Of a DNA stretch of 64,000 nt, positions 45,633 through 46,096 are shown one piece after another. The notes below the pieces were generated by a model. That model saw only the letters and a list, made by a program, of their open reading frames with translations. It searched no databases and was not told the DNA's origin. The position numbers and the translations under genes were made by a program. The DNA lies in the NCBI RefSeq assembly GCF_003712105.1, contig NZ_RHLG01000001.1, positions 920,889-984,888 on the forward strand, in the 5' to 3' direction. Every line of letters begins with the position of its first letter. Position 1 is the stretch's first letter. This stretch comes from Winogradskyella sp. GTDB taxonomy: Bacteria; Bacteroidota; Bacteroidia; Flavobacteriales; Flavobacteriaceae.

Positions 45633-45705
45633 TGGCCTATGGTGTAACTGGCAACACGTCTGGTTTTGGTCCAGAAGAGTCTAGGTTCGAGCCCTAGTAG
45701 GCCAA
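45633..45705 (+). tRNA. tRNA-Gln (anticodon TTG)
   Basis: TGGCCTA ... TAGGCCA acceptor stem; anticodon arm TCTGG-TTTTGGT-CCAGA; T-loop GGTTCGAGCC. CCA not encoded. Confidence 0.93.
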
Positions 45706-45714
45706 CAATAATTT

Positions 45715-45754
45715 AAGTTCTGACTACATTCGTAGTTGGAACTTTCTTTTTTTT
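45715..45754 (+). terminator. tRNA-Gln terminator (copy 1)
   Basis: AAGTTCTGACTAC-attc-GTAGTTGGAACTT plus T-rich tail. Confidence 0.75.
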
Positions 45755-45826
45755 AAGATATGCCAAAGGGCGAGAAGTTTATACTGAGCGGAGTCGAAGT
45801 GAGCCCTAGTAGGCCAACAATAATTT

Positions 45827-45866
45827 AAGTTCTGACTGCATTCGTAGTTGGAACTTTCTTTTTTTT
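45827..45866 (+). terminator. duplicated tRNA-Gln terminator (copy 2)
   Basis: Same hairpin with GACTGC variant, offset exactly 112 bp. Confidence 0.7.
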
Positions 45867-45940
45867 AAGATATGCCAAAGGGCGAGAAGTTTATACTGAG
45901 CGGAGTCGAAGTGAGCCATAAGAAGGCCAACAAGAATTAG

Positions 45941-45976
45941 AATCCTAACTGTAATTTTTCAGTTAGGATTTTTTAT
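45941..45976 (+). terminator. third, unrelated terminator
   Basis: AATCCTAACTG-taattttt-CAGTTAGGATT plus T-run. Confidence 0.75.
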
Positions 45977-46070: not shown

Positions 46071-46096
46071 GAGGGGACGAAAAGTCCCCTCTTTTT
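46071..46096 (+). terminator. terminator-like hairpin in rimP leader (candidate attenuator)
   Basis: GAGGGGAC-gaaaa-GTCCCCTC followed by TTTTT, between the promoter and ATG 46105. Confidence 0.7.

Follow-up and report, generated by a model that had tools for sequence, protein, structure and literature searches.

The tRNA-Gln locus

The window analyzed here, a 64-kb stretch of Winogradskyella sp. DNA, carries an intact tRNA-Gln (TTG) gene on the plus strand (45633-45706 by ARAGORN, 45633-45705 by Rfam), with the T-loop residue A58 at position 45690. A 112-bp duplication, on the plus strand like all of the array features below, starts within this T loop and continues downstream of the gene; by direct reading, unit 1 spans 45689-45800 and unit 2 spans 45801-45912, followed by a degenerate third tRNA-Gln tail, GAGCCATAAGAAGGCCAACAA, at 45913-45933. 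The original prediction had placed a tandem duplication at 45689 and 45801, with one difference and a third tail from 45913, and this is confirmed by direct reading, by Tandem Repeats Finder (45689-45938, period 112, 96% matches), and by a repeat search (112 nt at 99% identity, spacing 112). The sole substitution between the two units is A45726 versus G45838.

Each unit comprises the tRNA tail, the trailer, an intrinsic terminator, and a segment ending in ACTGAGCGGAGTCGAAGT. In unit 1, the terminator hairpin lies at 45715-45744 and its T-run ends at about 45754. It is followed by a leader, AAGATATGCCAAA (45755-45767), recognized as locus specific from direct reading and the comparison of proximal and distal copies, and by a short guide, GGGC (45768-45771), which is the complement of GCCC from tail position 59 onward. 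Next comes most of a 31-nt element that we call E, the first copy of which, GAGAAGTTTATACTGAGCGGAGTCGAAGTGA, spans 45772-45802 and contains a REP core at 45784-45799. Unit 2 repeats this plan, with its terminator hairpin at 45827-45856, its guide GGGC at 45880-45883, and the second E copy at 45884-45914. The window contains two CTGAGCGGAGTCGAAG segments. A distal terminator at 45939-45972 differs from those of both units and resembles the single terminator found at same-genus loci lacking the repeat. Six terminator-like sites were found, versus 0.4 expected in shuffled sequences. An Rfam scan of the window returned the tRNA alone at gathering score; a subthreshold match to sar (E value, 0.19) was put down to chance.

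The open reading frames downstream of the array read as a rimP-nusA-infB-like gene order. The original prediction had raised the possibility that duplicated terminators set the read-through into rimP. Since a promoter-like motif, TATATTTGC, separates the array from rimP (from 46033), such read-through is probably minor. A hairpin, GAGGGGACGAAAAGTCCCCTC, followed by TTTTTATA, lies directly before rimP at 46071-46091 and is also present at four same-genus loci (L242, L243, L258, and L262); it is a possible attenuator in the rimP leader.

Boundary, guide, and folding of element E

Between duplicated tails, E reads GAGAAGTTTAYN-CTGAGCGNNGTCGAAG-N'RA, and the consensus of the whole unit is guide-GAGAAGTTTAYN-CTGAGCG N A GTCGAAG-N' R A-tail. 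The junction with the tail is precise. In an alignment of 133 loci, sequence identity to the tRNA upstream of E is about zero at the four positions preceding R57, 0.62 at R57, and 0.98 at A58, from where it is held to the tRNA end. The original prediction of a tRNA 3'-end duplication is borne out, and the T loop is its start point. The tail of the cognate tRNA is matched at 13 or more of 14 positions by 164 of 189 E copies, while tails swapped in from other tRNAs peak at 6 to 7 matches.

The guide preceding GAGAAG is complementary to the tail from position 59 onward and covaries with it. The contiguous guide-tail stem has a mean of 4.64 bp, versus 2.72 bp upon permutation (permutation maximum, 3.13), and pairing at positions 59, 60, 62, and 63 exceeds every permutation. 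The guide varies in length from <4 to 11 bp across E copies.

The N and N' positions also covary (C-G, 119; G-T, 36; A-T, 25; G-C, 4), T-G being almost absent, and the hairpin loop is GNA in 177 of 189 copies. Since G-T is in excess over T-G, the tRNA-sense strand would be the one that folds, which suggests folding as RNA or as single-stranded DNA. The predicted folding as single-stranded DNA is good for copies with long guides (z of about -2.6) and weak for the two window copies (z of 0.1 and 1.1).

Empty and filled sites

Same-genus tRNA-Gln loci come in two states. Empty loci (e.g., L244, L245, L247, and L251) have one tail and one terminator, whereas filled loci (e.g., L249, L252, L246, and the window) carry an additional tail, a new terminator, a guide, and E, all ahead of an ancestral-type terminator. 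The original prediction had proposed, as one option, recombination in a former tRNA-Gln array, which an intact second tRNA-Gln gene in relatives would have indicated. No such gene was found at any same-genus repeat-free locus, where there is a single tRNA with a single terminator. In addition, the sequence separating the copies is conserved even among tRNAs with no tail sequence in common. A decayed multicopy array, or an assembly artifact, would account for tail copies that derive from a tRNA, but other tRNAs show the same architecture, as do independently assembled genomes such as Gelidibacter gilvus with its 112-bp spacing, and this explanation is hardly credible.

We compared the proximal and distal tail, trailer, and terminator, which at 33 loci are at least 80% identical as far as the T-run. 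In about 20 of these loci the match breaks off at the terminator T-run, with a locus-specific leader of 5 to 37 nt (61 nt in one case) before E; in 11, which correspond to tandem arrays, it runs on into E. The proximal segment derives from the trailer and terminator of the host itself and has diverged from them. In the clean cases identity stops at the T-run, and the duplicated tract is therefore A58 to the end of the terminator; the empty same-genus sites show that E came in together with a duplication that starts at A58 and, in the majority of recent cases, extends to the T-run. This tract is the 3' part of the primary transcript, and its limits may reflect an RNA template or the mere survival of duplications that kept a terminator.

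Two Patescibacteria carry E at the 3' end of a gene resembling those for tyrosine recombinases (L407, about 1460-1560; L408, about 1580-1470 on the minus strand). The last ~28 nt of the gene are duplicated, and the guide matches accordingly (CTTTTTCC/GGAAAAAG). Because a protein-gene 3' end was duplicated in these two cases, a tRNA is preferred but not required. Likewise, m1A58 acting as a stop for reverse transcription would fit the A58 start, but the protein-gene duplications indicate that it is not required.

Distribution of element E

In its own genome (10 contigs, 3.15 Mb), E also occurs after tRNA-Thr(TGT), in two copies, and after tRNA-Asn, in one, each followed by the tail of its own tRNA. 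Within this genome, the long form, which includes the GAGAAGTTTAT leader, is confined to the five tRNA positions (≤3 mismatches) and occurs at every one of them. The core CTGAGCGNAGTCGAAG, in contrast, is present at 62 places at ≤2 mismatches, with one hit in the reversed control. The GAGCGGAGTCGAAGT piece is a dispersed repeat of this genome, and the original prediction was right to liken the segment to a Bacteroidetes repeat. These dispersed cores have different leaders, and no duplication was found around them.

We collected 235 distinct E copies in Flavobacteriaceae and Patescibacteria. Of these, 202 lie downstream of a tRNA gene (same strand, at most 1.2 kb upstream), representing 21 isoacceptor classes, and are each succeeded by the tail of the tRNA in question; most of the others sit at the end of a contig or next to a tRNA tail or remnant. 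E is present in 25 of 201 Flavobacteriaceae genomes sampled at one per genus (≤3 mismatches; reversed control, zero), 21 of 61 Winogradskyella species, 9 of 396 Bacteroidota (≤2 mismatches), all nine being Flavobacteriaceae, and 10 of 380 Patescibacteria. An exact scan of GTDB genomes yielded at least 119 stretches with E, the matches listed including Woese-, Roizman-, Shapiro-, and Blackburnbacteria and one Chlorobiota bin. Loci contain 1 to 8 copies, in units of ~64 to 120 bp without genes. One genome (G170) has six copies 109 bp apart, and the array of W. algicola matches that of another genome of the genus (G269). In G. gilvus (G208), eight copies with ~118-bp spacing lie at C39:288201-289061, out of 15 genome-wide.

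Two loci depart from this compact layout. At L133, a 99-nt unit (spacer, guide, E, and partial tRNA-Glu tail) at 802-900 is identical to 2119-2217, 1,317 bp from the tRNA copy, with a 211-amino-acid open reading frame in between. Larger, cargo-bearing E elements were considered and rejected as a general feature, this 1.3-kb interval between exact copies being the single case. In genome G024, two arrays sharing a tRNA-Leu tail (L403 and L404) are 57 kb apart, and by our own reading the second is preceded by a manA-like start sequence resembling the guide plus GAGAAG. With this sequence at one edge, we took the interval as a rearrangement, which the sequence suggests to be microhomology driven, rather than as a transposition.

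Relation to tRNA-linked repeats, REPs, and mobile elements

The tRNA-linked repeats (TLRs) of E. coli have been known since 1978, and no function is known for them except for the copies linked to 5S rRNA (PMC8144298). Strain K-12 has 22 copies at ten loci, with 18 to 19 bp identical to the gene end (PMC8144298). At tyrT, where the RtT model (Rfam RF00391) matches four times, 178-bp repeats consist of a guide, GGGGAAGGAT, complementary to ATCCTTCCCC, then GAGAAG, hairpins, GAGTA, and a tail copy from position 58. proK follows the same plan with GAGGAT-GAGAA and its own tail. Several K-12 Lys and Arg loci have tail copies from position 58 or 59 after CGAGT or a similar end, mostly with an AGGAT-type guide followed by AACGTTGC in place of GAGAA. 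The number of RtT places per E. coli genome ranges from 1 to 14.

E arrays share this build. Both kinds of repeat lie directly downstream of a tRNA gene, occur as one to several copies per locus, in tandem, and contain hairpins; in both, the unit ends in a copy of the gene 3' end from position 58 or 59, identical to that end, and a complementary guide stands upstream of the hairpins, followed by GAGAA in the Tyr and Pro TLR copies as in E. However, E measures ~31 nt versus ~90 nt, its core is CTGAGCGNAGTCGAAG where TLRs have enterobacterial hairpins, its arrays lie mostly behind intrinsic terminators, and the RtT model had no match in nine E-carrying genomes at an E value of ≤0.1. We thus consider E TLR-like by its build and claim no membership by sequence. 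The common guide-GAGAA motif could reflect common descent or convergence. In the open-access literature, we came across TLR and REP papers but none that describes such repeats in Bacteroidota or Patescibacteria. A second, independent-looking family with the TLR plan in these phyla makes the origin of TLRs a testable question, and the E family offers a one-nucleotide boundary, a guide covarying with the tRNA, and empty and filled sites in one genus.

Enterobacterial rtT-like elements have also been reported as BIMEs (PMC2965389). Like REPs and BIMEs, E has a small palindromic core of which its genome harbors dozens of dispersed copies; unlike REP/RAYT systems, it has no GTAG or CGTC tag, and E is tied to tRNA 3' ends while the dispersed cores are not. 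A 2018 survey described atypical REPs beside Bacteroidetes-type TnpA (PMC6006769). We rejected a Y1/RAYT transposase as the mover of E: the own genome has no Y1 transposase (PF01797), E and Y1_Tnp are not associated among the 201 Flavobacteriaceae genomes (Y1_Tnp carriers, 10 of 25 E-positive genera versus 58 of 176 others), no core flanks any of 47 Y1_Tnp loci, and the Y1 loci examined lack the E core.

Proposed origin of the array

We favor, with a probability of about 0.6, the interpretation of the array as a two-unit TLR-like repeat, in which a structured element was joined at A58 via a single-strand intermediate and then expanded in tandem. This interpretation builds on what was observed: the architecture, the precise boundary, a guide that covaries with the tail, sites both empty and filled, and occurrence in different phyla. 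The E unit, with its tail-complementary guide, GAGAAG, REP-type hairpin core, and RA, would exist in a structured single-strand form, either single-stranded DNA or RNA, and its 3' end (NRA) would be joined to tRNA position 58/59. Repair synthesis would then recopy the tail, trailer, and terminator, leaving the tRNA gene intact and E between two copies, and the direct repeats would gain later units through unequal exchange. The intermediate, the joining at A58, and the repair synthesis are what we infer from these patterns. Against this mechanism, no enzyme was found for it and no transposition event observed, the window copies have weak predicted DNA folding, and the T-run breakpoints could mirror selection for a working terminator. 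Moreover, dispersed REP cores occur without duplication, so that the core alone is insufficient. More speculatively, and with the odds rather against it, the TLR/RtT repeats of E. coli might belong, together with the E arrays of Flavobacteriaceae and Patescibacteria, to a single trans-phylum class of genome parasites, namely hairpin elements characterized by a self-matching guide, recombination at the T-loop A58, and a recopied A58-to-T-run tract, possibly from RNA or a single strand.

An origin without any mobile step, by template switching during replication, is unlikely. In such a scenario, the downstream REP-like hairpin and the T arm stall the polymerase, jumps duplicate the tail and terminator, and quasi-palindrome correction matches the guide. 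Arrays that grow and shrink, as in the RtT range and in the six and eight copies cited above, the variable guide lengths that correction predicts, and the failure to find an enzyme would all fit. The recurrence of a 31-nt element with a single-nucleotide boundary across 21 tRNA classes and distantly related phyla would not, nor would the dispersed REPs that are free of duplication in the same genome.

For the E. coli TLRs that follow 5S rRNA, processing and binding to Hfq and CsrA are documented (PMC8144298), and E with its tail copy could similarly be kept as a small RNA, a sponge, or a backup terminator. At tRNA-Thr, E and the tail are indeed conserved while orthologous spacers diverge. We regard such selection as improbable, given that most E copies lie behind an intrinsic terminator and that presence within the genus is patchy (21 of 61 species).

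The T loop is the crossover site for many integrases, which produce a T-loop start and a restored tail. The original prediction of a scar of integration and excision stands in one respect, a site-specific join at the T loop being part of our preferred model; as in T-loop integrase att sites, E arrays contain a direct repeat of the tRNA 3' end from the T loop, and a tyrosine-recombinase-like open reading frame lies beside one tRNA-Leu array. In the usual form of this explanation, elements with a tyrosine recombinase entered at the T loop; after the loss of their cargo, the attL and attR tails stayed behind, and E would represent the right end of the element. That form is very improbable. The units have neither cargo nor integrase, the guide is inverted, the same 31 nt recur at 21 tRNA classes, no elements of intermediate size were found, the spacing is nearly constant (~112 bp), and the proximal segment is derived from the host trailer and terminator. 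A phage or plasmid origin of E was rejected, there being no phage, plasmid, or IMG/VR match. The E family cautions against taking every tRNA-tail repeat for an integration scar.

Other repeats at tRNA 3' ends

A second type of REP (GCGATGTGCTGAGC..GTCGAAGTA) lies inside the tail copies of three tRNA-Gln loci (L246, L252, and L212) and one tRNA-Met locus (L108), and at L265 a REP is found inside the loop of an E variant. In the own genome, 6 of ~32 tRNA genes have a tail copy within 500 bp downstream and none has one upstream (≤3/16 mismatches), for an estimated chance expectation of ~0.06. Tail copies without E are found at +88 to +160 of tRNAs Arg-TCT (L274), Met-CAT (L284), and Arg-ACG (L297), with a different hairpin-like sequence ahead of each, and possibly represent further families of tail repeats.
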